Shown: positions 11,752-64,000 of the stretch, piece after piece | Layout: the number at the start of each line of letters is the position of its first letter | Numbering within the stretch: the first letter of the stretch is position 1 | Source: Chitinophaga pinensis | Lineage (GTDB): Bacteria > Bacteroidota > Bacteroidia > Flavobacteriales_D > Crocinitomicaceae | Direction of reading: 5' to 3' | Assembly: GCA_945863605.1 (NCBI GenBank) | Contig: CAMAZP010000001.1 | Location: forward strand, 256,478-320,477 | DNA length: 64,000 bases | Translations under genes and position numbers: made by a program | The notes under the pieces: generated by a model | Database searches by the model: none | What the model was told of the DNA's origin: nothing | Seen by the model: the letters and a program-made list of their open reading frames with translations, nothing else

Positions 11752-11753
11752 TT

Positions 11754-12182: not shown

Positions 12183-12190
12183 ACATTACA

Positions 12191-13351
12191 CTATTTCTCA
12201 TTTAATAAACCAATTGCTATCTTCATTCGAATGATTCTTTTCACAGAAGCATCAGCTTTGAGCTTGAAATTTTTATCTTTTCTGTAAGCACTCAGCAATT
12301 CGTCATGCGATTTCTTAACATCTAAAGGCATTAATAAAATATCACAACCTGCGTTGATTGCTTTAAATGAAGCTTGAGGAACACTTGCGACACCACCCAT
12401 ATTCATTGCGTCAGTTACAATTAGTCCTTCAAACTGTAGACTATCACGTAAAAGATTTGTCACAATTTTTTCAGAACAAGTTGAGGGTAGACCTTCAGTG
12501 TCGAATTTTTTATTGTTCACTACGGCAATATGAGCTACCATAATTGACAAAACACCATTATCAATTAATTCTGGATAATTTTTGACTTCCTTCATCTCAC
12601 CATCAATTGATTGTAAAGAGTGATGCGTGTCGCCTGAAACTAATCCATGTCCGGGGAAATGTTTAGCAGTGGCAATTATATTGTTTTTTTGAGTGATTTG
12701 GATAAATTCGTCAGACCATGGAATTAAATTTTCGGCGATTGCTCCAAAACCTCGGTAACCGACTGTTTTATTGGCTGACATATCTACAACAGGCGCAAAA
12801 TTATAATTGATTCCAATTGCATTTAAGTCAGTAGAAATCGTTTGAGCAACCATTGAAACTTCTTCAATAGAATTTACTTCATTTGCTTTTTTAACTTGAG
12901 TTGAACCTGTAATTTTACGGTTAACTAAACTTGGTTCAGCGTCAGCACTGTAAAGAAATGGTAAGTTTCCAATTTTTTTATTGCTTGTTTCAAAGTCCTT
13001 AATCCAAGTTGTGAATTCTTCTTTAGTCCCATTTAACATCAGAACACCACCTATTAATCGCTCTTTAATGTATTGATCAATTTGGTCTTTGGTCTTTCCT
13101 AAACGTCCAACTGCAGGCATGATTAATTGAGCGATTCTTGCAGTATCATCCAATTCTTTAAAAATGCGATCTACTTCTTTGTCAAGTTCTTTATTTTCGG
13201 TTAAAAAATCTGAAAGTGCAAAATTGATTTTTGAAATTGGTTGTTTGATTACTTTTTTTACTTCTTTAGTTGGACTTTGTGCGCAACTATGGAATAACAT
13301 TGAACTTAAAACAACAACTGATATTAATTTGAACATAATTTTTTTATTCAA
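12191..13351 (-). CDS. Glycoside hydrolase family 3 (beta-N-acetylhexosaminidase-like) lipoprotein
   Basis: Lipobox SMLFHSCAQS; NYNFAPVVDM, ATAKHFPGHGLVSGDTHHSLQ, GLIVTDAMNMGGV. Confidence 0.88.
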   Translation of the reverse strand: MNKKIMFKLISVVVLSSMLFHSCAQSPTKEVKKVIKQPISKINFALSDFLTENKELDKEVDRIFKELDDTARIAQLIMPAVGRLGKTKDQIDQYIKERLIGGVLMLNGTKEEFTTWIKDFETSNKKIGNLPFLYSADAEPSLVNRKITGSTQVKKANEVNSIEEVSMVAQTISTDLNAIGINYNFAPVVDMSANKTVGYRGFGAIAENLIPWSDEFIQITQKNNIIATAKHFPGHGLVSGDTHHSLQSIDGEMKEVKNYPELIDNGVLSIMVAHIAVVNNKKFDTEGLPSTCSEKIVTNLLRDSLQFEGLIVTDAMNMGGVASVPQASFKAINAGCDILLMPLDVKKSHDELLSAYRKDKNFKLKADASVKRIIRMKIAIGLLNEK

Positions 13352-13446
13352 AACTAATTACTTTATAAGGTAAAAAATTAGTTGATTATTAAATTAACTA
13401 ATATTAAAAAGTTGAAAACTGATAGTAGTATCTTTTTACAATCAAC

Positions 13447-14130
13447 TCAATACAAGTCTTTTCTATATCCAACGTTAAATGTAAAAAACAATTGAGAATA
13501 TAATTGAGAAAAGGACGCTGTTTGATTGTTAGCTTTTCCGAAAAGAGCATACTGCCCATTAATATCAAAATAAAAAGTTCCAGTAGCAGGAATTGTGTAT
13601 TTAAGTCCTCCTTGAAGTCCTGCCGCAATACTTATTATGTTTCCTTTATCTTGTTCATTGGGAGAAGTGATATAATTTGGTTCCCATTGAAATACACCTG
13701 TAACATCACTTTTTTCATAATCTCTTTTTACTGTATTAAAAAACAACATGAAATTAGTGCCACCATATAGTGAAAAACCATTGTCATAATCGTTCCCCAA
13801 ATATCTTCTTGTTCCACCTTCAATCGTAAAATAACTAGTCTTTGAAACATAATTTACAGAAAGCACATTAGGTGTTGTCGTAACATCAACAGCCGTTACA
13901 TATGTGGAATACTTATCATCTTCTTTTTGAGGGAAATAATATCCAACTCGACCATAAAAAGTAACATCATTGCTTCTTGGCAATTCAATTCCACCATGGA
14001 AACCAAAAAATGGTTTAGGAACAGTAAATCCTTTTAAAACTCCAGTTCCTGCATTAATACTAATTTGAGAAATTGATTGAAAGGACAATACAATCATTAA
14101 AAAAGCAACCGAAAGTTTCATATTTTTCAT
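13447..14130 (-). CDS. Secreted/outer-membrane beta-barrel-like hypothetical protein
   Basis: Signal peptide MKNMKLSVAFLMIVLSFQSISQ; alternating amphipathic strands and C-terminal aromatic residue. Confidence 0.6.
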   Translation of the reverse strand: MKNMKLSVAFLMIVLSFQSISQISINAGTGVLKGFTVPKPFFGFHGGIELPRSNDVTFYGRVGYYFPQKEDDKYSTYVTAVDVTTTPNVLSVNYVSKTSYFTIEGGTRRYLGNDYDNGFSLYGGTNFMLFFNTVKRDYEKSDVTGVFQWEPNYITSPNEQDKGNIISIAAGLQGGLKYTIPATGTFYFDINGQYALFGKANNQTASFSQLYSQLFFTFNVGYRKDLY

Positions 14131-14645
14131 TTTAATTTAAAATTTGGACAATCATTTTTGTGAGCTCCTGGTAAAATCGTTATGCTCATTAAAAATTCAT
14201 TCACAATTTCTTTGCCAACAAATTTAAAGTTCTTTTTAAATAATTTTACCCAATCTTCTAAAGTAATTTCACCTTGAAGTTTCAACCAATTATAAAAAGA
14301 ACCATTTTCTTCAACAATTTTAATTACTTGTTTAGCATTATTGATAACAGCATTAATCTTTAATTTGTTTCGTATAATCCCTTTGTTTTGTAATAATTCT
14401 TCAATTTTATAATCATCGTACATGGCGATTTTGTAAAAGTTATAATTATCAAAAGCTACAAGAAATACATCTTGTTTCTTTAAAATGGTTTCCCAAGAAA
14501 GACCTGCTTGATTAATTTCTAGAATTAATCGGCCAAATAATTCAAAGTCATCTGTCAATTCAACTCCATAAAATTTATCATGGTAAACTCTATGAACATT
14601 GTCAATCGGTAAATTTTTACAAAAATCACAATAAGACATAATCAA
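14127..14645 (-). CDS. tag: DNA-3-methyladenine glycosylase I
   Basis: YHDKFYGVELTDDFELFGRLILEINQAGLSWETILKKQ...FDNYNFYKIA...RNKLKINAVINNAK; 4-nt overlap with the following gene. Confidence 0.88.
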   Translation of the reverse strand: MIMSYCDFCKNLPIDNVHRVYHDKFYGVELTDDFELFGRLILEINQAGLSWETILKKQDVFLVAFDNYNFYKIAMYDDYKIEELLQNKGIIRNKLKINAVINNAKQVIKIVEENGSFYNWLKLQGEITLEDWVKLFKKNFKFVGKEIVNEFLMSITILPGAHKNDCPNFKLK

Positions 14646-14680
14646 ATATATGCTTATTATTTTGATTTAGAAATATTTAC

Positions 14681-14688
14681 TATTTTTG
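14681..14688 (+). promoter_or_regulatory. Candidate -7 element TATTTTTG upstream of the 14703 gene
   Basis: TAnnTTTG match with TTTG 16 bp upstream (14661-14664). Confidence 0.3.
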
Positions 14689-14702
14689 TTTTAATAATTA
14701 AT

Positions 14703-15668
14703 GTGAAAAAACAACACTTTTTTTCTTTTGTTTTAGCAACGCTGTCTTTTGTAGCTGCAAAATCCCTTGAAGAAGTAGGGGTAGAAAATTATTATTACCA
14801 AAAAGCTACAAATTTTTATAAAGAAGATGGGTATTTTGACTTAATCCATCCTACAGAGGTAAATGTACTACCGATGGGGGTTTCGTCTTTTTCTGATTTA
14901 ACCTCAATGGATTCAACACATCTTGTTGGTATTGTGCCCAATAGTGGTGAAGTTGTTTTTTTAGATTTAATAGATTATTCGATTTCTAGCAAACTTTCTT
15001 TAGGAAGCGATCACAAATTTGTTGCTATTTCGAAAATAGATTCAACCTTAATCCTAATGGATTCTGAAAGTAAAGTACATTTTTTACTACCTCCTTATGA
15101 CGTAAATTCATTCGCATCTTCCAATAACACTAAAGAAAATTTCAATTCAGTTGGAATCTGTTTGCATCAATCTACAAAAAGGCTTTTTCTTATTTCTGAA
15201 GTTCAAGAAAAAGAAGAAGGTCAATTTTCTAGTTTTTTGTATGCTTTTAATTTGAATAAAAATCAATTGAGAGATGAACCAATATTTGAGATTAATTCTA
15301 CTGATATTGAAACATTTGCATTAAACAACAATTTATCGCTTCCCATTACTTTTGTCACAAATTCTGGTGATACAATTCAGGGTTTAGATTTTAACCCATC
15401 GGCAATTGCTGTTCACCCAAAAACGAATGAAATTTATATTCTTTCTTCAACTGATAGAAGCCTAATTGTTTACAATCAATTTGGAGAAATAGTTAATTAT
15501 ACAACGCTCGATTCATCGATTTTCCCAAGACCTTCTGGTATGACATTTCAAGAAAATGGAGACTTGTTAATTTCAAATTCAGAATTATTAAATCCTTCAA
15601 TAGTCAAGTTGAAATGGAACAAATTGTATCAATCACTTGAAGGTCATGGTTTAATTTTCGGACGTTAA
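14703..15668 (+). CDS. SdiA-regulated-like / beta-propeller hypothetical protein
   Basis: Signal-like N-terminus; DLTSMDSTHLVGIVPNSGEVVFLDL, LDFNPSAIAVHPKTNEIYILSSTDRSLIVYN, FPRPSGMTFQENGDLLISNS; GTG start. Confidence 0.6.
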   Translation: MKKQHFFSFVLATLSFVAAKSLEEVGVENYYYQKATNFYKEDGYFDLIHPTEVNVLPMGVSSFSDLTSMDSTHLVGIVPNSGEVVFLDLIDYSISSKLSLGSDHKFVAISKIDSTLILMDSESKVHFLLPPYDVNSFASSNNTKENFNSVGICLHQSTKRLFLISEVQEKEEGQFSSFLYAFNLNKNQLRDEPIFEINSTDIETFALNNNLSLPITFVTNSGDTIQGLDFNPSAIAVHPKTNEIYILSSTDRSLIVYNQFGEIVNYTTLDSSIFPRPSGMTFQENGDLLISNSELLNPSIVKLKWNKLYQSLEGHGLIFGR

Positions 15669-15840
15669 TTTTTTTACAAGCATTAAATTCGTGTAAATTA
15701 AAGCAATTCGTTTCTAAATTTATCTATAAGTCACTAGCAGCTTTTTTAGACATTTATTCTTCAATTTATTTCAATTTATATCCTTTAAATATGTTAGCTC
15801 GTACAAGAACTAACACCTTTTCTCTCCACCAATAATTTAT

Positions 15841-15848
15841 TAACTTTG
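15841..15848 (+). promoter_or_regulatory. Candidate -7 element TAACTTTG for pheT
   Basis: TAnnTTTG match 21 bp upstream of ATG. Confidence 0.35.
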
Positions 15849-15869
15849 CTACCACTTTAAAAATCACTC

Positions 15870-18305
15870 ATGAAAATCTCTTTCAATTGGCTTAAAAATT
15901 ACGTTTCAACTGAACTAAATATTGATGAAATTTCTAAAATCCTAACTGATACTGGCTTAGAAGTGGAAGGGGTTGAAAAAATGGAAGCAGTACAAGGCGG
16001 ATTAGACGGCGTTGTGATTGGTAAAGTTTTGACTTGCGAAAAACATCCCGATGCTGACAAATTAAAAGTTACTACTGTCGATATTGGCACAGAAATCTTA
16101 CAAATTGTTTGTGGCGCTTTAAATGTTGCCGCTGGACAAAAAGTAGTTGTTGCCACTGTTGGTTGCACTTTGTATCCGAAGCCAGATGAAGCTTTCAAAA
16201 TTAAAGCAGCAAAAATTAGAGGTGTTGAATCTTTCGGAATGTTGTGCGCTGAAGATGAACTAGGTTTAGGAACTTCGCACGCAGGAATTTTAGTTTTACC
16301 TGATCATATCGAAACAGGTTCATCTGCAGCGAGTTATTTTGATTTAGAAGACGATTTTCAAATAGAAATAGGATTAACTCCAAACCGTTCTGACGCAATG
16401 GGACACATTGGTGTGGCTCGAGATTTAGTAGCTTATTTTAATTTTCACCAAGGAAAAAATTCCTCAATCGTTTGGCCAGCAACCAAAGAATTAAAGGCTG
16501 AAAACACACATTTACCAATAAAAATATCTGTTGAAGATATAGCTAATTGCGACCGCTATTGTGGGGTGACAATTGCCAACGTGAAAGTGCAAGCTTCTCC
16601 AGAATGGTTGCAAAAAAGATTGCGCGCAGTTGGACTTTCTCCAATCAATAATGTGGTTGATGTTACCAATTTTGTGATGCGTGAATTAGGAACACCTTTG
16701 CACGCTTTTGATGTTGAGAAATTGAATGGTAAAATCGTTGTCAAAAAAGCAATTGAAGGGCAAGTTTTCAAAACGTTAGACGGCGTTGAAAGAACCTTGA
16801 AAGGAGAAGAGTTGATGATTACAAATGGTACTGAAAATTTGTGTATCGCAGGTGCTTTCGGTGGCGCAGATTCTGGAATCAATGAGCAAACTCAAGATGT
16901 ATTCTTGGAATCAGCTATATTTAATGCTGTTTCTGTTAGAAAAACGGCCAAAATTCACGGTTTAAATACCGATGCAAGTTTTCGTTTCGAACGTGGTGTT
17001 GACCCAGAATTAACACTTTATGCATTGCGTCGTGCGGCTCATTTGATACAAGAAATTGCAGGTGGAGAAATTGCAATGGACGAAAAGGATTTACTAATCA
17101 ATCCAGTTTCTAAGCGAGTAATAACCGTAAATCTAAACAAAATCAATCGTTTAATTGGAAGTGAAATTTCAAAAGAAGCAGTTGTTCAAATCCTAGAGAA
17201 TTTGGACTTTAAGATTTTGACATCAACTGAATTAGACTTAGAAATTGAAATTCCAAGTTACAGAACAGATGTTCACCGTGAAGCTGATGTTACAGAAGAA
17301 ATTCTGCGTATTTATGGCTTCAATTTAGTACCAATTCCTGAAAAATGGAATATTTCTTTACCGATTTCTGAAGCTATAAATGCTGACAAACTTCAAGCTA
17401 CAATTGCTGAGTTTTTGGTTGGAAAAGGATTCAACGAGGCTTTGAATAATTCATTGACAAAAGGAGTTTATGTAGAAAAATTAGGCGGAGAAACGTTAAA
17501 AGTCGAACATCAAGTGGAAATGTTAAATCCCTTGAGTCAAGATTTAAATGTGTTGAGACAAACTTTGCTTTTTGGTTTGATGGAAAACATTCAACACAAC
17601 CAAAACCGTCAGTATCCGAATGTTAAATTATTTGAATATGGTAAAACTTATTTCAAATATGCGTCAGGATTCAATGAGCAACGCACGATTTCATTCGTAC
17701 TAACGGGTTCAAAATCAGAAGAATCTTGGAATAATACATCAGAAACAGTATCCTACTTTACCTTAAAAGGAATCATTATTTCTCTTTTAAATCGTTTGGG
17801 ATTAACGTCTAATATCCAGGAAAAATCGTTAGAAAGTGATTTGTTTCAAGATGCTGAAAAAATCGAAATCTTCAAAAAATCAATTGTAGAGATTGGAATA
17901 GTTTCGTCCAAGATTCAAAAATACTTTGACGTTAAAAATCCTGTTTACTTCGCTTCGATTGATTTTGATGTATTGTTAGATACCTTGAAAACAGTTAAAA
18001 TCAAATTCAAAGATTTACCGAAAGCTTTTGCTATTAGACGTGATTTTTCATTGTTAGTGAATAAGGAAACAAAATTCTCGGAATTAGAGACTGCTGCAAG
18101 AAAAAGTGAGAAAAAATTGCTTCAAAGTGTGAATTTATTTGATGTTTACGAAGGTGACAAATTGGAAGCTGGCAAGAAATCGTATGCACTTTCATTTATT
18201 CTACAAGATGGTGACCGTACCTTAAATGATCAAGAAATTGACAAAGCAATGGAGTTAATCCGCTTAGGTATTGAGAAGGAAACGGGGGCAGTTTTGAGAG
18301 GATAA
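15870..18305 (+). CDS. pheT: Phenylalanine--tRNA ligase beta subunit
   Basis: MKISFNWLKNYVSTELNIDEI, GLTPNRSDAMGHIGVARDL, VVDVTNFVMRELGTPLHAFD, C-terminal FDX-ACB domain. Confidence 0.97.
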   Translation: MKISFNWLKNYVSTELNIDEISKILTDTGLEVEGVEKMEAVQGGLDGVVIGKVLTCEKHPDADKLKVTTVDIGTEILQIVCGALNVAAGQKVVVATVGCTLYPKPDEAFKIKAAKIRGVESFGMLCAEDELGLGTSHAGILVLPDHIETGSSAASYFDLEDDFQIEIGLTPNRSDAMGHIGVARDLVAYFNFHQGKNSSIVWPATKELKAENTHLPIKISVEDIANCDRYCGVTIANVKVQASPEWLQKRLRAVGLSPINNVVDVTNFVMRELGTPLHAFDVEKLNGKIVVKKAIEGQVFKTLDGVERTLKGEELMITNGTENLCIAGAFGGADSGINEQTQDVFLESAIFNAVSVRKTAKIHGLNTDASFRFERGVDPELTLYALRRAAHLIQEIAGGEIAMDEKDLLINPVSKRVITVNLNKINRLIGSEISKEAVVQILENLDFKILTSTELDLEIEIPSYRTDVHREADVTEEILRIYGFNLVPIPEKWNISLPISEAINADKLQATIAEFLVGKGFNEALNNSLTKGVYVEKLGGETLKVEHQVEMLNPLSQDLNVLRQTLLFGLMENIQHNQNRQYPNVKLFEYGKTYFKYASGFNEQRTISFVLTGSKSEESWNNTSETVSYFTLKGIIISLLNRLGLTSNIQEKSLESDLFQDAEKIEIFKKSIVEIGIVSSKIQKYFDVKNPVYFASIDFDVLLDTLKTVKIKFKDLPKAFAIRRDFSLLVNKETKFSELETAARKSEKKLLQSVNLFDVYEGDKLEAGKKSYALSFILQDGDRTLNDQEIDKAMELIRLGIEKETGAVLRG

Positions 18306-52372: not shown

Positions 52373-52380
52373 TAATTTTG
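52373..52380 (+). promoter_or_regulatory. Candidate -7 element TAATTTTG for lpdA
   Basis: TAnnTTTG match 18 bp before ATG 52399. Confidence 0.35.
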
Positions 52381-52398
52381 TATCATAAAATTAAAATT

Positions 52399-53790
52399 AT
52401 GAATTACGATATTATTGTTGTTGGTAGCGGACCAGGCGGATATGTAACTGCAATACGCGCTTCTCAATTAGGATTGAAAACAGCTATTGTTGAGCGTGAA
52501 GAGCTTGGTGGTATTTGTTTAAATTGGGGTTGTATTCCAACTAAAGCATTGTTAAAATCTGCCAACGTTTTTGAATATATTTCGCATGCAGCTGATTACG
52601 GAATCACTGTAAATGGAGCAACAGCTGACTTTTCAGGAATGGTTAAAAGAAGTCGTGATGTTGCAAACGGAATGAGCAATGGTATTCAATATTTAATGAA
52701 AAAAAATAAAATTGATGTTCTCAAAGGCAATGGTGTTATCAAAGCAGGTAAAAAAGTTGTTGTAACAGATGAAGCTGGAACAACAACTGAATATACTGCT
52801 TCTAAAGGAGTTATCATTGCAACAGGAGCTCGTTCAAGAGAATTACCTAACCTACCTCAAGATGGTAAAAAAATTATTGGTTACCGTCAAGCAATGACTT
52901 TAGAAACGCAACCAAAAAGATTAGTAGTTGTTGGTTCAGGTGCTATCGGAGTTGAGTTTGCTTATTTTTACAATGCAATCGGAACAGAAGTAACAGTTGT
53001 TGAATATTTACCAAATATTGTTCCTGTAGAAGATGAGGAAGTATCAAAACAATTGGAAAAATCGTTCAAAAAATCGGGTATTAAAGTAATGACAAATGCC
53101 TCTGTTGAGTCGGTTGACACAAAAGGTACAGGTTGTGTGGTTACTATTAAAACTGCAAAAGGAGAAGAGAAAATAGAATGTGATGTTGTTCTTTCTGCTG
53201 TTGGAATTCAAGCAAACCTTGAAAATATTGGTTTAGAAGAAGTAGGAATTGTAGTAGATAAAGGTCGTATTTTAGTGAACGATTACTACCAAACAAATAT
53301 TCCTGGTTTCTATGCAATCGGAGATGTTGTTCCGGGTCCTGCCTTGGCACACGTTGCATCAGCAGAGGGGATTATTTGTGTAGAAAAAATTGCTGGTCAC
53401 CATCCAGAGCCATTGAATTATGGTAATATTCCTGGTTGTACGTATTGTTCGCCTGAGGTTGCATCTGTTGGAATGACAGAAAAAGCGGCTAAAGAAGCTG
53501 GTTATGAAATTAAAGTTGGAAAATTCCCATTTTCTGCTTCAGGTAAAGCGAGCGCAGCTGGTGCAAAAGATGGTTTTGTTAAGTTAATTTTCGATGCGAA
53601 ATACGGTGAACTTTTAGGAGGACACATGATTGGTGCAAATGTTACAGAAATGGTGGCAGAATTAGTTGCAGTTCGAAAACTAGAGACAACAGGTGAAGAA
53701 TTGATTAAAACGGTCCATCCACATCCTACAATGTCAGAAGCAATTATGGAAGCAGCAGCAGCAGCTTATGGTGAAGTAATTCACTTGTAA
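52399..53790 (+). CDS. lpdA: Dihydrolipoyl dehydrogenase
   Basis: DIIVVGSGPGGYVTAIRASQLGLKTAIVEREELGGICLNWGCIPTKALL; C-terminal HPHPTMSEAIMEAAA. Confidence 0.97.
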   Translation: MNYDIIVVGSGPGGYVTAIRASQLGLKTAIVEREELGGICLNWGCIPTKALLKSANVFEYISHAADYGITVNGATADFSGMVKRSRDVANGMSNGIQYLMKKNKIDVLKGNGVIKAGKKVVVTDEAGTTTEYTASKGVIIATGARSRELPNLPQDGKKIIGYRQAMTLETQPKRLVVVGSGAIGVEFAYFYNAIGTEVTVVEYLPNIVPVEDEEVSKQLEKSFKKSGIKVMTNASVESVDTKGTGCVVTIKTAKGEEKIECDVVLSAVGIQANLENIGLEEVGIVVDKGRILVNDYYQTNIPGFYAIGDVVPGPALAHVASAEGIICVEKIAGHHPEPLNYGNIPGCTYCSPEVASVGMTEKAAKEAGYEIKVGKFPFSASGKASAAGAKDGFVKLIFDAKYGELLGGHMIGANVTEMVAELVAVRKLETTGEELIKTVHPHPTMSEAIMEAAAAAYGEVIHL

Positions 53791-53827: not shown

Positions 53828-53870
53828 AAAACAAAGAAGGAGATCGAAAGGCCTCCTTCTTTGTTTTATT
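53828..53870. terminator. Apparent bidirectional terminator between lpdA and the polysaccharide cluster
   Basis: AAAACAAAGAAGGAG-loop-CTCCTTCTTTGTTTT with flanking A and T runs. Confidence 0.8.
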
Positions 53871-53895: not shown

Positions 53896-54654
53896 TTATT
53901 TTCTTATTGAAATCAAAAGTCTTTTCACCAAATTTTTAACATTTTGATTGAATAATTCAATAAACCATTTTATAAAATGATTATTCCATCTTTGTGGGTG
54001 AAACGTAAACATGATTTGATTTGGTAATTTATTTTGATTGAATGCTGTTATAATTTCATTAGTTTCGGTAAACTTTTGAGTAAATGATGAATTTACTTTA
54101 TCTCTCACACTAAATTTTTCACTATTCCAGGTTCTTCCCGTATCAGTTAAATAAAAAACTTTATCGAAATCTGTATCAAAATAGGGTTCAGCAATAATCC
54201 CAAGTAATTTATAATCATTTGTTTTCCATAAATCTTTATTATCGTATTTAGATAAAGGACTTCCATGCATACAAATCGTTGAAACAGGGGCAAGTTTTCT
54301 TAGTAGCTCTAAGTTTTTAGTAAAATCTTTGATGGCTAAATTTAGATTTCCATTAGTAGTTGTTATATTTTCATAATGATAGCCGATTTCGTGACCTAAA
54401 GAACTAATTTTTTTTATGATTGTATCGTCCCAACTTACTTTAACTGCTCGAAAATAATATACACCTTTTATTCCTAATTCTGCTTGTATTTCTGCAAAAC
54501 ACAATGAATTTTCGGGATTTAAATCAACATCATGACGTAAGATTATTACTTTATTCTTTGGTTGAATTATGAAATCGTTGTAGGTCTGAAATTCATACCC
54601 TGCATTTTTCATTGAGAGAAGTAATGATTTATATTTATGAACTGTAAAATCCAT
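53896..54654 (-). CDS. Polysaccharide deacetylase-like protein
   Basis: KVIILRHDVDLNPENSLCFAEIQAELGIKGVYYFR (RHDVD motif), LGHEIGYHYE, CMHGSPLS, FTFHPQRW. Confidence 0.75.
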   Translation of the reverse strand: MDFTVHKYKSLLLSMKNAGYEFQTYNDFIIQPKNKVIILRHDVDLNPENSLCFAEIQAELGIKGVYYFRAVKVSWDDTIIKKISSLGHEIGYHYENITTTNGNLNLAIKDFTKNLELLRKLAPVSTICMHGSPLSKYDNKDLWKTNDYKLLGIIAEPYFDTDFDKVFYLTDTGRTWNSEKFSVRDKVNSSFTQKFTETNEIITAFNQNKLPNQIMFTFHPQRWNNHFIKWFIELFNQNVKNLVKRLLISIRK

Positions 54655-55736
54655 TATTTAAATTTGTTTTGAAAAGTAATATCTTGTGCAATTATTTGTT
54701 TTGATTTTGGAAATTCTTCAATGTACCATGTCAAGAAACTGGAAGCATCGATTTTATCGGCGAAATAAGTAGCTAATTTAATTTGCATAGTTGATTTTAA
54801 ATTGGGGTTGCTCAATAATTCTACGCCTTTTTCAATTGCTTTTACTTGATCCTCAACGTTACTTTTATAAGAATAGAATAGTTCATATTTCATTAAATCC
54901 AAAGCATTACCCGACCAGTTATCGTTCAAGAAAATTGCAGGAGTGCCCAAAACAGAACTTTCAGCTGCCATGGATGCTCCTTCTCCAAAGAAAAGCGATG
55001 AATGATAAAGTGCATCGTGCATTTTATCAAAAGGGATTTTTATACGATGCTTTTCAATTTCTTCAGGCAAGCTTCCTTCAGCAGAAATGAAGACCTTTGC
55101 ATATTTGGAGAATTCTTTAACGGCTTTAACTTTGTTATCATCATTAAAACCATGTAATCCTTTATCATGATAGGCTTCCCAACTTACAAATCTTAAAATT
55201 ACAAACTTTTCATCTTTTGAAATTTTCAAGTAATCGTAAATGGAATCGTTTGGACGAAAGTGATTTGGATGTAAGTAAAACAACTCAATATTACTGTTAA
55301 TTCGAACCTGGTCTTTCCGCAAATCTCTTTTAAAAGTGGTAGACGTAATTAAAGAATCTAAGAACTTAGTAAATATTGAGTCATAAATCCCAGAAATTTC
55401 AGTATCGGCGAGTGCAATATGTCTTTTTCCTAAAAGTTTTCCTGCAATAGCTGCAAAAGGTGAAACACGGGAAACAATAAAATCAACTTTTTCTTTTCGA
55501 ATAATTTTAAATATGATAGCGGAGTTAACGAAAAGAGTATTTAACTTAGAGATAAATCCTTTCGTTGGTCGAGTAATTTCGTAAGCTTTAATTCCATATA
55601 AATCTAACAATTCAAAACTTATATCTTTTTTACTTGAAACCCAAACTACCTTATGACCTTTAGCTTCGAGTAATTGCTTTACAATTCTAAAGTTATGTAT
55701 TTGAGCTGGATGCCCTGTTACGAAAAGTACTGTCAT
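54654..55736 (-). CDS. DUF354 family (nucleotide-sugar epimerase/glycosyltransferase-like fold)
   Basis: VLFVTGHPAQIHNFRIVKQLLEAKGHKVVWVSSKKD, ALADTEIS, FFGEGASMAAESSVLGTPAIFLN. Confidence 0.85.
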   Translation of the reverse strand: MTVLFVTGHPAQIHNFRIVKQLLEAKGHKVVWVSSKKDISFELLDLYGIKAYEITRPTKGFISKLNTLFVNSAIIFKIIRKEKVDFIVSRVSPFAAIAGKLLGKRHIALADTEISGIYDSIFTKFLDSLITSTTFKRDLRKDQVRINSNIELFYLHPNHFRPNDSIYDYLKISKDEKFVILRFVSWEAYHDKGLHGFNDDNKVKAVKEFSKYAKVFISAEGSLPEEIEKHRIKIPFDKMHDALYHSSLFFGEGASMAAESSVLGTPAIFLNDNWSGNALDLMKYELFYSYKSNVEDQVKAIEKGVELLSNPNLKSTMQIKLATYFADKIDASSFLTWYIEEFPKSKQIIAQDITFQNKFK

Positions 55737-56896
55737 CTGGACTTAAATATTTTAAATAGAAGAATGAAATACATGAATCCAGGTTTTTGATCTCCTTTTT
55801 GAAAAAGTGCGTTTATTTTCTTTTTAGGTATGTTTTCAAATATAGATTTTAATTTAATACGTCTCAAAAGAAGACCTTTAATTCCAAAAAATATATTCGT
55901 AATTGGATTGAACCAAATTGTACCGATTTCGTAATTTTTTAATTCTTGTATTTCAACGCCATTAACATATTCATAAGCGATTTTAGCATAATTTACACCA
56001 CAAGCTTTCGCAAGGCCAATCCAAAGCCAAGATCTCGCATTGATTTCAATTAATTTATACTTATTATCTCTTATGTCTAAAAGGTATTCTATTTCACAAA
56101 TTCCAGTATAATTGAGCGTTTTCATTAGTTTTTTTGAAGGTTGAAGCAATTCTGATTTTTCTATACTTTCTGCTAATGTTGCGGTTCCAAAACGGAGTGG
56201 GTGTTCTCGTAGTTTTATTCCAATCCAATGTGCTTTAATTTTACCTTTAATGGAAAAACAGGTAAATGAAATTGTTTTGTTTTCTTCGCTGAATGGAAGA
56301 ATTTCTTGTGTAAATGTTTCCTTCAATGGAATTTTACTTTCTAAATTTTGAAGATTATATTTAAGTTCCTCCTTTGTATTCGAGAGTAAAACTTTAGTTT
56401 TTGTTTTTTTGTAAAAACTTAACCCGTTATTTCCTTTAGTTATCAATGGGAAATTTAATTTGACTTTGTCGCAATCAGAAAGTGAATTGTAGGTTTCGTA
56501 TAACGGATAATCTACACCAATTTCATGCGCAATTTTCAATAATTCAACTTTATTATAAATTTTCAAAACTGTTTCTAAATCTTCAGTAATTAGTTTGAAA
56601 TGATGATTGAGTTTTTCTTTGTTTTTAGAGATTGAATAAACAGCATGATCATTTGATGGTAACAATAACCATTTTTGGAGATTGTGTTTTTCAGAAAATT
56701 GAATTAAAAAATCGATAAAAAGCTCATTATCGAAAGCAGGACAAATTTCAAAATTTTGACAGTATTTTGAGTAACGAGCCACACAATCAGATGTATCAAT
56801 TACCCAAACAGGAATTCCTTGTTCTCCTAGAGCGCGAACATTCGACAGACCTTGAACATGTCCTTCAATAATTATTACACCAGGTTTAGTATCCAT
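55733..56896 (-). CDS. ATP-grasp protein (COG3919/CarB-like)
   Basis: GVIIIEGHVQGLSNVRALGEQGIPVWVIDTSDCVARYSKYC, FPLITKGNNGLSFYKKT, GICEIEYLLDIRDNKYKLIEINARSWLWIGLAKACGVNY. Confidence 0.85.
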   Translation of the reverse strand: MDTKPGVIIIEGHVQGLSNVRALGEQGIPVWVIDTSDCVARYSKYCQNFEICPAFDNELFIDFLIQFSEKHNLQKWLLLPSNDHAVYSISKNKEKLNHHFKLITEDLETVLKIYNKVELLKIAHEIGVDYPLYETYNSLSDCDKVKLNFPLITKGNNGLSFYKKTKTKVLLSNTKEELKYNLQNLESKIPLKETFTQEILPFSEENKTISFTCFSIKGKIKAHWIGIKLREHPLRFGTATLAESIEKSELLQPSKKLMKTLNYTGICEIEYLLDIRDNKYKLIEINARSWLWIGLAKACGVNYAKIAYEYVNGVEIQELKNYEIGTIWFNPITNIFFGIKGLLLRRIKLKSIFENIPKKKINALFQKGDQKPGFMYFILLFKIFKSR

Positions 56897-57839
56897 AAAT
56901 TTTAATTATTCGATTTGCTATGGATTGAGCATCAAGTTGTAATTCTATGATTTTTTCTAATCCTCTCGTGTATTTATTTTCTTTGTTAAATTCCAACACT
57001 TTAAGAATGCAATCAGCAATTATTTCAGCATCGAAATTAGTTACAAAACAGCCTTCTACATTTTCTAAAAGCCATGCAATATCTCCGACATTGGTTGCTA
57101 CAATTGGGCGATTACAAGCCATGGATTCTTTAATAATGTTAGGCGAACCCTCCCATTTTGAGGTCAGTAAAATGCAGGCGGAGGATTTAATTTCCTTAAT
57201 GATTTCAGCATGTTCAATATTGTAAACAACTATTAAATCTATTGTTGGCACTACTTTTTTTACTATATCTACTGCTTTTCTGGCTAGCTCAAAATTCTTT
57301 GATTCTCTTGAAGGATCAGCCGCAAATAAGATTTTGTTTTCAATAGTTTCCTCTTGATTATAGAATTTTTGAATTTGCACGCCATTTGGAATGACTTTGA
57401 ACTTTTTTAATCCAAGGAGAATTGCCATTTGTTGACTTTTTACAATTGTCACAAACCATAAATTTTTTGAAAAATAGATCGTAAGTTTTCTTTTCCAACC
57501 CTTCATTTGGGCATCACTTCCCATGAGTGAAACTACTAATTTTGGACGGTTTTTAAAAATCAATAAAATAGCTAAACTAGTAGCAAAAGCAGTAAGTGAA
57601 TAATGTGCATGTACAATTTTAACCTTTTCTTTTTTTATTGATTTATATATAGGTATAACTGCATTTAAGTAGCCTAAAATACCCTTTTGTGAAATAATTG
57701 AATAGCTAATATTTATTCCTTTATCAATCAAACTATCTGCTTGATTTTTCACAATGACACTTGGTTTTCCTTGTGATTTATTTCCACTACAAACAAATAA
57801 TACTTTCAAACTAGCTTCTTGTTTTTTGGTAAAGTTCAA
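56886..57839 (-). CDS. Glycosyltransferase family 4-like
   Basis: KVLFVCSGNKSQGKPSVIVKNQADSL, VHAHYSLTAF, VIPNGVQIQKF, LLTSKWEGSPNIIKESMACNRPIVATNVGDIAWLL. Confidence 0.92.
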   Translation of the reverse strand: MNFTKKQEASLKVLFVCSGNKSQGKPSVIVKNQADSLIDKGINISYSIISQKGILGYLNAVIPIYKSIKKEKVKIVHAHYSLTAFATSLAILLIFKNRPKLVVSLMGSDAQMKGWKRKLTIYFSKNLWFVTIVKSQQMAILLGLKKFKVIPNGVQIQKFYNQEETIENKILFAADPSRESKNFELARKAVDIVKKVVPTIDLIVVYNIEHAEIIKEIKSSACILLTSKWEGSPNIIKESMACNRPIVATNVGDIAWLLENVEGCFVTNFDAEIIADCILKVLEFNKENKYTRGLEKIIELQLDAQSIANRIIKIYGY

Positions 57840-58863
57840 TTGCTGACTGTAATCTTAAATCGTAGGATTCATTGGTATTAAAATCACCAGCTTCAAATTT
57901 CCATCTACCATTTTCAAATAAATACCTACCAATACAATCATCTACTTTCATTTGATAAGCATCTGATTGACCGAAAATACATTGCATTTCATTCACTAGA
58001 TAACCTTTTGGGGATTCAAAAACATCAACAGCTTGAGAATAAAAATGATGTTTATCAGTGATGACTTTCACAAAGTCTAATAACGCTAAAGGTGGATTTC
58101 CATAATCTTTCAATAATGAACCACTTGTCATGTTGCCAAGCATCAGTTTTTTATGTGCGAAAAAAGAATCTCCCATCCGTACTACGCGCCATTCAAATGT
58201 ATGTGGAATATATTCTTGAAACAAAACGAAGTCTTTTTGAACATCTAGGGCCCTTGCTTTGTAAACATCAAATTTTTTAAACAAGGTTTTAGGATTAGAA
58301 AGTAAACGGATTCCTCTTTGTAATATACGCCCTTTTTTCAGATTTGGGCCGACCCTTTTTGTTGCTCCCTTACCAGAAAATGTAGATTGAATATAACTAG
58401 TTAATTCTTGTTTTGTATCAACAATAACCACCCCACTACCAGAAGCACCAATATTTGTTTTTGCTACAATAGGAAACTTAATTGTATTTGAATTTACCCA
58501 ATCTAGCGCTTCCATTTCGAAATAAAAAACAGAAGTTTTAGGATGTGGGATTTTATTCGCTTTTAACCAATAGGAAAAGTATTTTTTATTTTCATAAATC
58601 AATACTTCTTTAAGGGATGGAAAACAAAAATAGTTGGATTCATTGCACAGAATTTCCAATCGTTCATCATAAAGAATTTTGAAAGTTGAAGTTAATCCTG
58701 CGGGTTTAGTTAGTAAAATATTGGGTTTATAATTTTCTATAAGCTCAAGCCAATTTGCTTTACTCACATCAACAACTATAAATTCAAGATTTAATTTTTC
58801 ACAGGCAATTTTCCATTTCTGTTCAGATCCCTCAATTTCATTTGTTAAGATTACAAATTTCAC
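57811..58863 (-). CDS. RimK/COG0189-type ATP-grasp protein
   Basis: KFPIVAKTNIGASGSGVVIVDT, VLFQEYIPHTFEWRVVRMGDSFFAHKKLMLG, YLVNEMQCIFGQSD. Confidence 0.82.
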   Translation of the reverse strand: MKFVILTNEIEGSEQKWKIACEKLNLEFIVVDVSKANWLELIENYKPNILLTKPAGLTSTFKILYDERLEILCNESNYFCFPSLKEVLIYENKKYFSYWLKANKIPHPKTSVFYFEMEALDWVNSNTIKFPIVAKTNIGASGSGVVIVDTKQELTSYIQSTFSGKGATKRVGPNLKKGRILQRGIRLLSNPKTLFKKFDVYKARALDVQKDFVLFQEYIPHTFEWRVVRMGDSFFAHKKLMLGNMTSGSLLKDYGNPPLALLDFVKVITDKHHFYSQAVDVFESPKGYLVNEMQCIFGQSDAYQMKVDDCIGRYLFENGRWKFEAGDFNTNESYDLRLQSAIELYQKTRS

Positions 58864-60134
58864 GGTAGTAGCTTGTTTTTGTTTATTAAATCAAAATAAA
58901 ATGGGTTTGAGAATTTGTGCCAAAATCCTTCATTATTTTTGAGTTCAATTGAATTCAATTGTGTAAAATACAATTCTTTATCATAAATAGTCCAAATTTC
59001 ATCAGAAATTTCTTGTGATTTTTCTTTTATTAATTCAATAAACCATTCGTCATAGGAGAATGATGGATAGTTTTTAATTTTTTTAATATATTTCTGCCAG
59101 ATCCTTTTAGTGATATAATTCAAATTCCCTTTTAAAAAATCTTTTGGTGCATAGCCATTTGACAATTCTATATCGAGTAGGGCAGGGTAGAACACAGAGA
59201 TTAACTGGCAGTATAATTTTGGGTGTTCTAAAAAGCTAACTTTTTTATTCAATTTCCGCATAAAATGATGCTGGGATAGTGTCAGTTTTTCTAAATATGA
59301 AGATTGCATATAAACTGGCACTACTTTTTCTACAAATTTAGTATAAATTCTAATGTCCTGATTGTGGTGTATTTTACCAATAAGTTCGTTTACAAAGTAT
59401 AATTTATTACGATTTTTATCCTCAGTCATCCAAGGTAAGGAATTAATCTTAGCTTTCAAGCTTGCAATTTCCGATTCATTTAAATGAATAAAATACCTCT
59501 TTAGTTGATTTTTTAAATTCTCATCAAAAGACAATTTATTCTCATTAAAATATTCAAAAAAAGGAGATGAAAAATAATCATTGTAGGAAAGTCCTCTAAT
59601 GTTTTCTCCACCCAAATGACCGGTAAATAGTACTTTTAATGGATGTTTTTCTGTTAATTCTGAAATTGCAGCAGTACGATGCGCTCTGTGAAAATGTGCA
59701 TTTCCGTTATCTAAAACGATTGTCTTATTGCTCCAATGCATGTACCATTCCTTAGTTGGAGTTACATTTGCAAAATTGTAGAAAGTTAAACCTAAGTTTT
59801 CGCATATAGTTCTTGCAATTTGAATGTCGCGATTTTTCTCATTTCCATAAGTGAAGCATATAGGTTTGATTCCTAGATGTAAGAGCGCTGCTAAAATTAC
59901 TCTTGAGTCAAAGCCACCTGTTAGCGTTAATCCAATTTCTTTGTGATTAATGTTATTGGTGTTTTCTTTTATAATTGTTAAAATTTCTTGACTGATTTCT
60001 ATTTCAGTAACTGAGATTGGTTGTTGAAGATTGCTCCATAATTTATCAGTAAAATGAAATTTTTCATTTAAAACTTCAATTACATTGTGATGAAAAAGAC
60101 TGAATAATGCGTTATTAAGTTTGTTTTGCAGCAC
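58860..60134 (-). CDS. Asparagine synthase-like protein lacking the N-terminal glutaminase domain
   Basis: IGLTLTGGFDSRVILAALLHLGIKPICFTYGNEKNRDIQIARTICENLGLTFYNF (PP-loop SGGxDS-like); no Met-Cys Ntn start. Confidence 0.8.
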   Translation of the reverse strand: MLQNKLNNALFSLFHHNVIEVLNEKFHFTDKLWSNLQQPISVTEIEISQEILTIIKENTNNINHKEIGLTLTGGFDSRVILAALLHLGIKPICFTYGNEKNRDIQIARTICENLGLTFYNFANVTPTKEWYMHWSNKTIVLDNGNAHFHRAHRTAAISELTEKHPLKVLFTGHLGGENIRGLSYNDYFSSPFFEYFNENKLSFDENLKNQLKRYFIHLNESEIASLKAKINSLPWMTEDKNRNKLYFVNELIGKIHHNQDIRIYTKFVEKVVPVYMQSSYLEKLTLSQHHFMRKLNKKVSFLEHPKLYCQLISVFYPALLDIELSNGYAPKDFLKGNLNYITKRIWQKYIKKIKNYPSFSYDEWFIELIKEKSQEISDEIWTIYDKELYFTQLNSIELKNNEGFWHKFSNPFYFDLINKNKLLP

Positions 60135-61353
60135 TTTTTTGAAGAGATTTAATTTTTATTAATGATATTGACAAACCAATCAGTGATCCAAGATTAAGAA
60201 GAATATATCCTCTGTGATTAACCCCTTGCATAGTTCCTCCAATTGATAAAAATGCTTGAACAGCAATTAGTGAAATTGAGGTTGCAAAAATTTCTTTTGA
60301 TAATTGATCTTTACCAAGTATTTTTTTGTAGTGATTCTGTCTAAAAATTATTTTAACATATACACTGAGAAATAATATTAGTCCAACAATACCTGCACCA
60401 CCAAGCATATTAGAATAATCCACATGCAGCATTCTTTGTCTGCCTAAGAAATCTTTTTTTAAAAAAACATTGTATCCAAAAAATATTCGATTTAGACTAT
60501 TAAATGTTTGTTCTAGTGTGAATTTTAATTCTAATAGTCTACCTTCCGATTCGTTTTCTTGCAATTGATCAACCGTCATTGATACTCTATTTTGTCTTGA
60601 TTCAAATCTCTTCTCAATTATTGGGAAATAATAGGTTGAAGTAAGAAATAAAAGTAAAATCACCACTGGTAAACTTTTAATAATTCTTGTTTTATAAGGT
60701 GTTAGTAACGAATAAAATAAAAATCCAAAGCTCATAGCTAAAATTGCTGATCTTTTCATTCCGATAATAATTGTTATAATACCAATAAGTAATGCTATAA
60801 TCCCTAATGTCCAATATTTTTTATTTGATTCAATTCTCAAATAAAGTGGTAATGAAATAATGAAGATTGCAATTGATTTTGTTATGTTAACACCAGATTC
60901 ACCAAAGTAAATAGAGTCGTCTTGATAACTTTGTTTTCCGATACCAACTACATTTGAAATAGCAAAATAAATAATAATAATAATTAAACTAATAAGAAAA
61001 GAACGTTGTATAAGTAAAAATTTTATTGGACTCGTAACAAAATGAAAACCAAGCAAGAACATTAAGCTTGATATGGCAAATTTATTGAATATGTAGAGTG
61101 AAGTGGAAGGTTCATCTGAAAACCAACATAGAATAAATATATAGAAAGTATAAAACATCAGTAGATTAGTATCTTGATGTCTTCTGTATTTATTGAATAG
61201 AAACCACAATAAGAAAAATGTTAAAATTACTCCCCTGATTACACCTGGATTTAACGACCCTGAAAAAAATGGAGTTGCAATAGATGACAAAACATTCAGG
61301 ATGGGAATGAATAGAAAAAAATAAAAAACAATATTTACTTTTTCCTTATTCAT
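60115..61353 (-). CDS. O-antigen polymerase/ligase-like membrane protein
   Basis: Multiple TM helices; HVDYSNMLGGAGIVGLILFLSVYV near the C-terminus; cluster context. Confidence 0.75.
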   Translation of the reverse strand: MNKEKVNIVFYFFLFIPILNVLSSIATPFFSGSLNPGVIRGVILTFFLLWFLFNKYRRHQDTNLLMFYTFYIFILCWFSDEPSTSLYIFNKFAISSLMFLLGFHFVTSPIKFLLIQRSFLISLIIIIIYFAISNVVGIGKQSYQDDSIYFGESGVNITKSIAIFIISLPLYLRIESNKKYWTLGIIALLIGIITIIIGMKRSAILAMSFGFLFYSLLTPYKTRIIKSLPVVILLLFLTSTYYFPIIEKRFESRQNRVSMTVDQLQENESEGRLLELKFTLEQTFNSLNRIFFGYNVFLKKDFLGRQRMLHVDYSNMLGGAGIVGLILFLSVYVKIIFRQNHYKKILGKDQLSKEIFATSISLIAVQAFLSIGGTMQGVNHRGYILLNLGSLIGLSISLIKIKSLQKSAAKQT

Positions 61354-62389
61354 TTATATTTGAAGTATTAAGGAATCTATTATTTTTATTTGAAAGATTT
61401 TTCACAAAATCATAAACATTTAAAATTTTTTTTATTGGAAAATTGATTAAATAACTTTCGTCAAATTGCCAATAATCATATTTGAAAATCAAATTTTTAT
61501 CCATAATTGCAATATTATATAAAGCTGATGAATAAAAAGAAGCAAATATTATTGGTTTTTCAATTTGCTCATCAAATAAAATACATTCTAAAGGTTTATT
61601 AAATGATTTAGTAAGCCAGTTTTTTGGAATATAATCCAAAGTAGTTGAACGATGAGGTAAATAGTAGCAGGTATAATTTTGACTGTTGTAATAATTAAAA
61701 ATTGAGTTTATTAATTTTATATAATTTTCTTTACTCATCATTTTTTGAAAAACTAATGGTTGACCCACAAAATAAACAATCTTACTTAAAGTACCGATTT
61801 TAAATTGTTTACTTAAATAATCATAACTGTGTAATTCTAGGTTTTTTGAACTTTGTTGCAAGTCAAAATTTGTAAAAAAATGTATTCTTTCCCAATTAAT
61901 TTTGTAATTTAATCTGAGAACAATACGTTCAATTTTACCTAGTTTACTGCTTAATAAAGACGATTTTATAGCTTGAACATCTGAATTATGAATGAAATCA
62001 ATTGAAGCAAATCCATCATCTAAAATGTAAAAATTTGATTTTTTTTTATAAAATAGATAAAAAAACCAATTTGAATTAATATTTCCCCAAAAAATAAAGT
62101 CTTTGTTTTCGATAGTTAATAGTATTTTATCAATTTTTAGTTTTCGGTTGAAAATATAAAACAAGTTGAAAATTGGTAAATTTTTTTTTGATACAAATTC
62201 TTTCCATGGGTAGGAGATACTAGTCCATAAATTAGGATGTATTATGGCTTCAATTTGAGAAATAGTACGATGAAAGTCACTCAGAATAATTAAATGCTGA
62301 GCTGATTGACTAAATTTTTTTGTTTGACGAGCTTCTACAGCATTTAAATATTGTAATGGTGTTCTGACAAAGTAAAAATTAGCATTCAT
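61346..62389 (-). CDS. Putative glycosyltransferase of GT52/polysialyltransferase-like type
   Basis: N-terminal NFYFVRTPLQYLNAVEARQ resembles sialyl-/polysialyltransferase-like starts; YYLPHRSTT; cluster context. Confidence 0.45.
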   Translation of the reverse strand: MNANFYFVRTPLQYLNAVEARQTKKFSQSAQHLIILSDFHRTISQIEAIIHPNLWTSISYPWKEFVSKKNLPIFNLFYIFNRKLKIDKILLTIENKDFIFWGNINSNWFFYLFYKKKSNFYILDDGFASIDFIHNSDVQAIKSSLLSSKLGKIERIVLRLNYKINWERIHFFTNFDLQQSSKNLELHSYDYLSKQFKIGTLSKIVYFVGQPLVFQKMMSKENYIKLINSIFNYYNSQNYTCYYLPHRSTTLDYIPKNWLTKSFNKPLECILFDEQIEKPIIFASFYSSALYNIAIMDKNLIFKYDYWQFDESYLINFPIKKILNVYDFVKNLSNKNNRFLNTSNINE

Positions 62390-62452
62390 TGTAATTATAT
62401 TAATTCATTTCAAAATAAGATAGGAAGTTAAAGAATTTATAATCTAACTCAA

Positions 62453-63925
62453 CTAGTCTATATAAGTTCTGTTCAGATTGATTCTTTTACTTATTATATT
62501 TTTTAAATCTTTGATAATATCTAAAATATATATCATTCCTTCATTTTTTAAAAACCAATTTATTGAGATGTAAATTAAAATGAATGCTAGCGAAAAAGCA
62601 ATTCGAATTGCAAGTAATTTGATTTCAAGTAATTCAAAAATAATAAATCCAGGTAACAGTGGAATAAAACCAATTAGGAAGAGTTTAAAGTGTTTTTGTA
62701 TGGATAAATTTGAGTGTTTTTTTAACATAATAAAATTTAGGAAAGTATCAATGAATTTTGAAATCACCCATGTGACAGTAAACCAAAATATTCCGAAATA
62801 AATTGCAAAAATGAAAGGTATGAGACCAATTAATTTTTTACCAAATCCGTAATAAAAATTCTCTTTCGCTTTACCTTTACTCATCATTGCATTCCACATT
62901 AACGAATTTAATGGTAAAGTGCAACTAGCTATTATTAGTATCTGAAAAATGGGAATTGAATTACTCCATTTTTCTCCAAATAATATTAAAATTATATCTG
63001 ATCCCATGAAAAATAGAATTCCAGTTATAATAAAACTTAAAAAAGATATTACAGAAAACATTCTAAAATATATTCTTTCATAATTTTCAGGATCATTTTG
63101 AAGTTTACTCAGAACGGGAAACAAGACACGTATTATAGAAGATGATGTATATTTAGTTACCTGATCAACAAGAGAAGAGGACCTTGTGTAGTAACCAACA
63201 CTAATTGGAGAGAAAATTGTTGCTAAAAGTAAAACATCTAAGCGCATAAAAATATTGTTTAATATTCTTTCAAAAAACGCAAATAAACTATATCCCATTA
63301 ATTTTTTTATTTCAGAATATGAAAATTGTAACTTTGGTTTCCATGTAGAGGTTGACCATAGTAAAATGGTACCAATTAAAGCAAATGAGAGTGTTTGTAA
63401 AACCAAACTAAAAACCCCCATTCCATTATACGCTCCGATAATCCCCAATGTCCCACTAATTGCAGATGCAACAAATGTTCTTAGCGTTACAGCTTTAAAA
63501 TTTAGATTCTTGTTTAAAATAACATTTTGAACTCTATTGAAAGAATTGAAAATAAATATTAGTGACAACCACCTAACAAGTGTTGTTACTTCCTGATTTC
63601 CATAAAAATTACCAATTAAAGGTGCAAATAAGTAAGTTATAATTGTTAAGATTATGCCTGCAAAAATGTTAAAAACAAAAATAGAATTGTAAGTTAATGG
63701 TGTATTGTTCTCACGTTGTATTAAAGCAGATGAAAATCCAATATCAATAAAAACAGAAGCGATACTTATAAATGCCATAGCCATTGCAATCAAACCAAAT
63801 TGCTCAGGTCCAAGTAATCTTGCTAAAAATATTGAAACAATAAATGTGTTGCTCTGTGTAAAAAGTCGTCCAAATAAATCCCATGAAAATGCATTTACGG
63901 ATTTATTTTTAACTGATTTTTCCAT
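62453..63925 (-). CDS. Polysaccharide flippase (MOP/Wzx-WzxC family)
   Basis: FSWDLFGRLFTQSNTFIVSIFLARLLGPEQFGLIAMAMAFISIASVFIDIGFSSALIQR; ~12-14 TM helices. Confidence 0.93.
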   Translation of the reverse strand: MEKSVKNKSVNAFSWDLFGRLFTQSNTFIVSIFLARLLGPEQFGLIAMAMAFISIASVFIDIGFSSALIQRENNTPLTYNSIFVFNIFAGIILTIITYLFAPLIGNFYGNQEVTTLVRWLSLIFIFNSFNRVQNVILNKNLNFKAVTLRTFVASAISGTLGIIGAYNGMGVFSLVLQTLSFALIGTILLWSTSTWKPKLQFSYSEIKKLMGYSLFAFFERILNNIFMRLDVLLLATIFSPISVGYYTRSSSLVDQVTKYTSSSIIRVLFPVLSKLQNDPENYERIYFRMFSVISFLSFIITGILFFMGSDIILILFGEKWSNSIPIFQILIIASCTLPLNSLMWNAMMSKGKAKENFYYGFGKKLIGLIPFIFAIYFGIFWFTVTWVISKFIDTFLNFIMLKKHSNLSIQKHFKLFLIGFIPLLPGFIIFELLEIKLLAIRIAFSLAFILIYISINWFLKNEGMIYILDIIKDLKNIISKRINLNRTYID

Positions 63926-64000
63926 TTTTACTTTTCAAAATGAATTCACAAAAATCCCAGTCCAATTGTTCATCTAAATCAATTGAATCAAAAGTTGACA
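63909..64000 (-). CDS. C-terminal fragment of a CDS truncated by the right window edge
   Basis: Minus-strand frame ...STFDSIDLDEQLDWDFCEFILKSKNGKIS* open to the edge; overlaps the flippase start by 17 nt, like other overlaps in the cluster. Confidence 0.45.
   Translation of the reverse strand, partial: STFDSIDLDEQLDWDFCEFILKSKNGKIS

Follow-up and report, generated by a model that had tools for sequence, protein, structure and literature searches.

What does the gene cluster at the right-hand end of this stretch of Chitinophaga pinensis DNA build, and do its three ligase-like proteins attach anything to the product? The stretch analysed (the window; 64,000 nucleotides) is positions 256,478-320,477 of the forward strand of contig CAMAZP010000001.1 (C1) in assembly GCA_945863605.1, and the cluster consists of nine minus-strand genes between 53896 and 63925, here called g1 to g9 in order of position. 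An initial annotation had described a polysaccharide locus whose two ATP-grasp proteins and one asparagine-synthase-like protein might furnish the polymer with amino-acid or other amide substituents. The reading that we prefer, and to which we give a roughly even chance, is a surface glycan locus (O-antigen, capsule or O-glycan) with a nonulosonic-acid repeat unit, to which a conserved six-gene amide module is added.

The evidence for the sugar lies outside the window. The last base of the window is also the last base of C1, and the absence of any nucleotide-sugar enzyme from the visible genes had rightly been taken as a sign that the locus runs past the right edge. In two public metagenome-assembled genomes the homologous locus (L010 and L011) is complete; its genes are the same but uninterrupted, and they include those for NeuB, NeuC, a nucleotidyltransferase with a CBS domain and a cytidine monophosphate (CMP)-sugar transferase. 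When this stretch was searched against the genome of the window itself, it matched the right-hand end of contig C34. C34 stops within the CMP-transferase gene, the final 92 bases of the window are the 3' end of that gene, and alignment to L010 and L011 puts the gap between C34 and C1 at about 26 nucleotides. The genes on C34 encode a NeuB-type synthase (TIGR03569, 470.9 bits, above the cut-off of 399.65), a NeuC-type 2-epimerase (TIGR03568, 305.9 bits, above the cut-off of 235.9), the CBS-nucleotidyltransferase and the CMP-sugar transferase, with a TviC-like uridine diphosphate (UDP)-sugar epimerase and NeuD upstream. For the CMP-nonulosonate cytidylyltransferase, whose own gene is split across the two contigs, the L010 orthologue scores 88.1 bits on PF02348; TIGR03584 remains below its cut-off. 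Since C34 carries the NeuB, NeuC and CMP-transferase genes and shares a split gene with the window, the assignment as a nonulosonic-acid (sialic- or legionaminic-type) Wzx/Wzy glycan locus is well supported by family membership.

Like known legionaminic and sialic acid O-antigen or O-glycan loci, this one has a full nonulosonic gene set with Wzx, Wzy and glycosyltransferases, and its counterparts in G136 and G127, two genomes of the same genus, also encode LegC and a dehydratase of the PF02719 type, in keeping with legionaminic acid synthesis. It differs from them in the six-gene module that follows and in its Leg enzymes: no LegB match exceeds the cut-off anywhere in the window genome, and the LegC above cut-off lies at C1:186813, outside the locus, LegC being at the locus in G136 and G127 only. 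Legionaminic acid was on these grounds set aside as a certain product. The outlying LegC gene adjoins a PF02719-related dehydratase gene (C1:185494-187895, or L083:7495-9896) whose product is 41% identical to that of L071, far from the glycan locus; G544 and G545 likewise have a LegC above cut-off away from the locus.

The second part of the answer is the module. The collinear order g6-g5-g4-g3-g2-g1 is shared by five loci of different genomes (the window, L010, L011, L020 of G136 and L021 of G127), which is far beyond chance; the genes between Wzx and g8 vary among loci (aminotransferases, sulfotransferases, acetyltransferases and GT2). A neighbourhood search across Bacteroidota had been suggested with the initial annotation, and phylum-wide searches found all six block types also in four distant genomes (G304, G332, G214 and G271), partly shuffled and with the DUF354 and GT4 types sometimes weak. 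Among 396 genomes of the phylum, strong g5 and strong g6 co-occur in five of six genomes (Fisher p 4.5e-10, uncorrected for relatedness); the two genes are neighbours in four of these five and are separated by one gene in G271. Within the family, high-scoring g6 orthologues were present in 2 of 149 other genomes. The locus is species-variable and the module sporadic in the genus. The locus type is already known. The literature on ATP-grasp, asparagine synthase and polysaccharide, as far as it could be searched (subscription papers were mostly outside the search), contained no account of the six-gene module.

The AlphaFold model of g5 (predicted local distance difference test, pLDDT, 85) matches ArgX, LysX and RimK in Foldseek (ArgX 3vpb, E 3.5e-16, probability 1.00); of its metal ligands D280 and E292 never vary, and a Gln (Q294), itself invariant, takes the place of the usual Asn. 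The g3 protein matches carbamoyl-phosphate synthetase (1bxr), and the metal-binding E and ExN residues (E270, E284 and N286) are invariant.

The asparagine-synthase-like protein g6 is more unusual. Single-sequence searches of the PDB with g6 and g5 were uninformative, and the matches came from profiles and the fold search. The best Foldseek match of the g6 model (mean pLDDT 86) is asparagine synthetase B (1ct9, E 1e-5), followed by beta-lactam and carbapenam synthetases; NAD synthetase was also matched. The PP-loop is retained as TGGFDSR, in which TGGxD is invariant, in line with an SGGxDS-type motif. The N-terminal nucleophile (Ntn) glutaminase domain is absent; in longer relatives (562-578 residues) an Ntn-like domain persists, but its catalytic N-terminal Cys is missing. 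In place of the SGEGSDE-type motif g6 has TGHLGGE, with Gly invariant at the Asp position in ten members; motifs were compared by eye on invariant columns, as profile-profile alignment to canonical AsnB misaligned the C-terminal half. Judged from these features, the missing glutaminase and the TGHLGGE motif, g6 cannot be an ordinary glutamine-dependent amidotransferase, and the changes could reflect either a different amine nucleophile or lost activity. Beta-lactam synthetase, carbapenam synthetase and lasso peptide cyclase are glutaminase-dead relatives of asparagine synthetase that use an amine other than ammonia as the nucleophile. By fold and profile matches g6 resembles them in having an asparagine-synthetase fold without glutamine hydrolysis; it differs in the complete loss of the N-terminal domain, in the TGHLGGE motif and in its glycan locus. 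The three ligase-fold proteins of the initial annotation are thus part of a conserved module, and their fold assignments are supported. Degenerate active sites would have counted against the amide proposal; the ATP-grasps keep nearly all metal-ligand positions and g6 keeps its PP-loop, but a normally acidic motif of g6 is altered throughout its family.

In four distant loci a canonical, glutaminase-intact AsnB gene (630-634 residues encoded) lies directly upstream of, and overlaps, a distant RimK-like ATP-grasp gene (L016:8073-10981, L087:6136-9047, L090:6204-9115 and L098:6723-9625). The homology of these g5-like genes is distant, and the comparison suggests a series of AsnB-like proteins from intact through glutaminase-dead to domain lost. 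The pairing of AsnB with a RimK-like protein in glycan loci is broader than the six-gene module.

This series bears on whether the module could instead make primary amides (uronamides) with ammonia, in the manner of WbpS, rather than amino-acid amides. AsnB-like WbpS makes glucuronamide in Porphyromonas gingivalis (PMC7468200), UDP-sugar dehydrogenases are encoded in the window genome, and glutaminase-less, ammonia-dependent synthetases exist, NAD synthetase, itself a fold match of g6, among them. Yet in distant loci the partner of the g5-like gene is an intact glutamine-dependent AsnB, whereas the module lineage has lost its ammonia source, and the adjoining ATP-grasp ligases point to larger nucleophiles. 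We regard uronamide formation as unlikely.

Several observations weigh against an active amide module. The Asp of SGEGSDE is a metal-binding residue (second metal position) in AsnB and beta-lactam synthetase, and its replacement by Gly could mean that g6 has lost adenylation. In the putative deacetylase g1, only the first of the two metal His residues in the HxxxH motif of CE4 enzymes is present, and Pfam gives no match. The block is incomplete in some distant loci, and that of G359 has no AsnB-like gene. No initiating sugar transferase (phosphoglycosyltransferase) was found in the locus, no genome-wide search having been made. Finally, ATP-grasp and AsnB-like genes are common in glycan loci, and their association may in part reflect this shared setting instead of a common pathway. 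An alternative built on such points is that g6, and perhaps g1, is repurposed or inactive, so that the ATP-grasps act alone or the group performs other chemistry. The Asp-to-Gly change, the loss of the whole glutaminase domain and the weak Pfam scores of g6 favour it, as does the metal His missing from g1. Against it, the TGGxD, HRAHR, GGE and HxxQD positions of g6 are invariant across ten diverse members with identities as low as 24%, a pattern suggestive of selection for function and not of decay, and the gene stays beside g5 in most module loci. On balance this alternative seems improbable.

Which sugar would carry the amide is addressed by the distant loci. In Campylobacter, legionaminic acid occurs in N-acyl or glutamyl variants, a precedent for a decorated nonulosonic acid, and the ligases share one operon with NeuC and the CMP-transferase in five loci, so the ligases might act on the nonulosonic acid itself. 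However, no NeuB, NeuC or CMP-transferase was found in the fetched 6-21 kb of the module loci of G304, G332, G214, G271, G359 and Lewinella. This rules against the nonulosonic acid as the decorated sugar, which we consider very unlikely; the block is not tied to the nonulosonic acid genes, and some other sugar is probably its substrate. Two distant module loci also contain a phosphatidylserine-decarboxylase-family gene adjoining the ATP-grasp and DUF354 genes (L066:4216-5025 and L067:13711-14529); enzymes of this family can act on amino-acid-derived groups, and we count this in favour of the amide model. A separate feature, conserved in three of the distant module loci, is a two-domain oxidoreductase (zinc-dependent alcohol dehydrogenase plus GFO/IDH/MocA, about 710 residues) followed by a family of about 390 residues without a convincing Pfam match (L066:8388-10511, L067:9214-11340 and L068:8885-11023); the latter family also occurs in L069.

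A further rival comes from the type IX secretion system (T9SS). In P. gingivalis secreted proteins are attached to the linking sugar 2-N-seryl-3-N-acetylglucuronamide, made by the deacetylase VimE, the aminoacyl transferase VimA, the AsnB-like WbpS and Wbp enzymes, with VimF as a glycosyltransferase (PMC7468200, PMC13086638); Prevotella intermedia has an N-alanyl sugar without VimA or VimE, by a route stated as unknown (PMC11969387). The Wbp/Vim pathway of P. gingivalis and Tannerella forsythia (PMC7468200) resembles the module in combining deacetylase-type, aminoacyl-forming and AsnB-like enzymes with a glycosyltransferase for sugar amide chemistry in Bacteroidota. The differences are the two ATP-grasps, the lack of any FemAB/VimA-type gene found, an AsnB-like protein without glutaminase, and the setting in a sporadic Wzx/Wzy nonulosonic locus. 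If the module nevertheless made an aminoacyl linking sugar, an ATP-grasp would replace the FemAB-type VimA and g6 would replace WbpS. Consistent with this, PorU is encoded in the window genome, FemAB gives no match there, and its contig C15 carries WbpA/B/E-like genes as one contiguous set together with a NeuD-like acetyltransferase gene (L112, which is C15:8000-27999; set at 10254-16609); the Lewinella loci place RimK, GT4, deacetylase, FemAB and DUF354 genes side by side. PorU also accompanies a strong g5 in each of the six phylum genomes that have one, but it occurs in 65% of the phylum sample, so this is not significant, and it is present in G022, the sole module-less congener checked. The search for VimA-type FemAB, with a Lewinella query that matches its own source genome, found nothing in the window genome or its relatives, although a more divergent VimA could escape it; the absence extends to module-positive and module-negative congeners alike and so is not specific to the module. 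A WbpB homologue is present in 11 of the 12 same-genus genomes examined, module-less ones included, and some distant g5-like genes lie beside canonical AsnB in a family with no PorU among its listed members. Membership of the Wbp/Vim pathway was rejected despite the common logic, as no VimA-type enzyme was found and the module is sporadic; because WbpB and PorU occur in congeners without it, the T9SS reading is kept as a minority rival that we think quite unlikely.

Returning to the amide-decorated glycan, a tentative route can be drawn, its chemistry resting on fold, residues and neighbourhood. By family membership, the TviC-like epimerase, NeuD, NeuB, NeuC, the CBS-nucleotidyltransferase and the CMP-transferase supply a CMP-nonulosonic acid, the exact sugar being left general, and g8, g4 and g2 would transfer sugars. 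The less certain steps follow: g1 may strip an N-acetyl group from a sugar other than the nonulosonic acid, g5 and/or g3, with their ligase folds and metal-ligand residues, may form an amide with an acyl phosphate as intermediate and an amino acid as the most likely partner, and g6 may convert a carboxylate to the acyl-adenylate and join it to an amine, which would not be glutamine-derived ammonia because the glutaminase is missing. Wzx would then flip the unit and Wzy polymerize it. That the module adds an amide-linked substituent, likely amino-acid derived, to a different sugar before flipping is plausible but unproven. The amide substituents first proposed are thus retained on the strength of the conserved module and folds, with the qualifications that the nonulosonic acid is probably not the carrier and g6 is not an ordinary amidotransferase. 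A more specific version, which we regard as doubtful, is a tRNA-independent attachment of amino acids to surface sugars in scattered Bacteroidota, in which a deacetylase-type enzyme, two ATP-grasps and a glutaminase-less AsnB relative act sequentially on one sugar, with an ATP-grasp in the role of VimA.

Features of the locus, with positions in the window
Feature	Position	Strand	Evidence
3' end of CMP-nonulosonate cytidylyltransferase gene (STFDSIDLDEQLDWDFCEFILKSKNGKIS*)	63909..64000	-	tail aligns with L010/L011 CMP-transferases; 5' part is C34:25024-25616
g9, Wzx-type flippase, 490 aa	62453..63925	-	PF13440 E 5e-80, 269 bits; NF058658 221 bits (below cut-off 720)
g8, putative glycosyltransferase, polysialyltransferase-like, 347 aa	61346..62389	-	PF07388 20.1 bits (cut-off 23.3)
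g7, Wzy-like polymerase, 412 aa	60115..61353	-	TIGR03097 5e-8, below cut-off; PF04932 25.0 bits (cut-off 31.7)
g6, asparagine-synthase-like PP-loop protein lacking the glutaminase domain, 424 aa	58860..60134	-	PF00733 2e-4, barely above cut-off
g5, RimK/LysX-like ATP-grasp ligase, 350 aa	57811..58863	-	PF08443 6e-6 or PF02786 2.5e-6 (pair given for g5 and g3 jointly); Foldseek ArgX 3vpb
g4, GT4 glycosyltransferase, 317 aa as listed	56886..57839	-	PF13692 1e-11
g3, CarB/PRK12767-like ATP-grasp, 387 aa	55733..56896	-	carbamoyl-phosphate synthetase large subunit E 1.6e-12
g2, DUF354-like GT-B-type protein, candidate glycosyltransferase, 360 aa	54654..55736	-	PF04007 below cut-off; MurG 7d1i E 5e-4
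g1, divergent CE4-type deacetylase-like protein, 252 aa	53896..54654	-	RHDVD and HEIGYH motifs; PgdA 2c1g E 2e-4
15-bp perfect inverted repeat, loop 10	53828..53867	.	between locus and convergent gene 52378-53790

The family assignments of the initial annotation fared unevenly. The Wzx call is strong, and family searches back both ATP-grasps and the GT4 protein. The Wzy call is weak, the matches of g7 to related families all being under curated cut-offs, and the asparagine-synthase call is just over its cut-off; DUF354 falls below its own, and the deacetylase is only divergently CE4-like. A PF07388 match in two of five g8 orthologues (best E 3.7e-8) makes g8 a candidate nonulosonic acid transferase. 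The weak profile match of g2 to MurG is consistent with a GT-B transferase. In g1 the RHDVD motif and the two His of HEIGYH are invariant, and no signal peptide was apparent by eye.

The nine genes and their overlaps are placed by the open reading frame table as first described, with one correction: for g4 and g5 the 29-nucleotide overlap requires g4 to start at an upstream TTG. The other overlaps recur in orthologous loci. Because the start of two g4 orthologues corresponds to an internal TTG of g4 ('LKVLFVCSGNK') and two more begin there or within a residue of it, g4 probably starts about 30 nucleotides later than listed, about one nucleotide past the g5 stop and without that overlap. The inverted repeat at the other end is likely a bidirectional terminator; its loop exceeds the range of the terminator scanner. 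The G+C content of the locus is 28.5% versus 33.4% for the remaining window. Directly upstream of the locus in G136 is a NusG-like gene (L071:7769-8299), an arrangement shared with the UpxY-regulated capsule loci of Bacteroides; in the window genome, no open reading frame of this kind is listed upstream of the locus on C34. Beside the end of the locus, L011 encodes a T9SS sorting-domain protein (15043-17256), and L021 has a similar-sized unannotated gene in the same place (1137-3359).

Two further known systems invite comparison. The N-acetylglutaminylglutamine amide (NAGGN) pair AsnO/Ngg (TIGR03104/TIGR03103) consists of an AsnB-like enzyme beside an amide-forming ATP-grasp ligase, and its product is a free osmolyte dipeptide. 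The module shares this gene adjacency and differs in its glycan setting; a module relative scores just 44.7 bits on TIGR03104 (cut-off 570). The XrtA/PEP-CTERM exopolysaccharide loci (TIGR03108 amidotransferase, deacetylase and FemAB) likewise bring together AsnB-like, deacetylase and polymerase genes, and g7 matches TIGR03097 below cut-off. Unlike them, the fetched loci showed no exosortase (no genome-wide search was made); g6 has no TIGR03108 match, and its long relatives fall far below that cut-off.

If the amide-decorated glycan reading is correct, the module would offer a genetic handle on amide-decorated surface glycans of Bacteroidota and candidate enzymes for aminoacyl-sugar chemistry that lacks known genes, for example the N-alanyl linking sugar of Prevotella intermedia (PMC11969387). 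The AsnB series, from intact through glutaminase-dead to domain lost, would be a natural experiment in how an amidotransferase switches its nitrogen donor.

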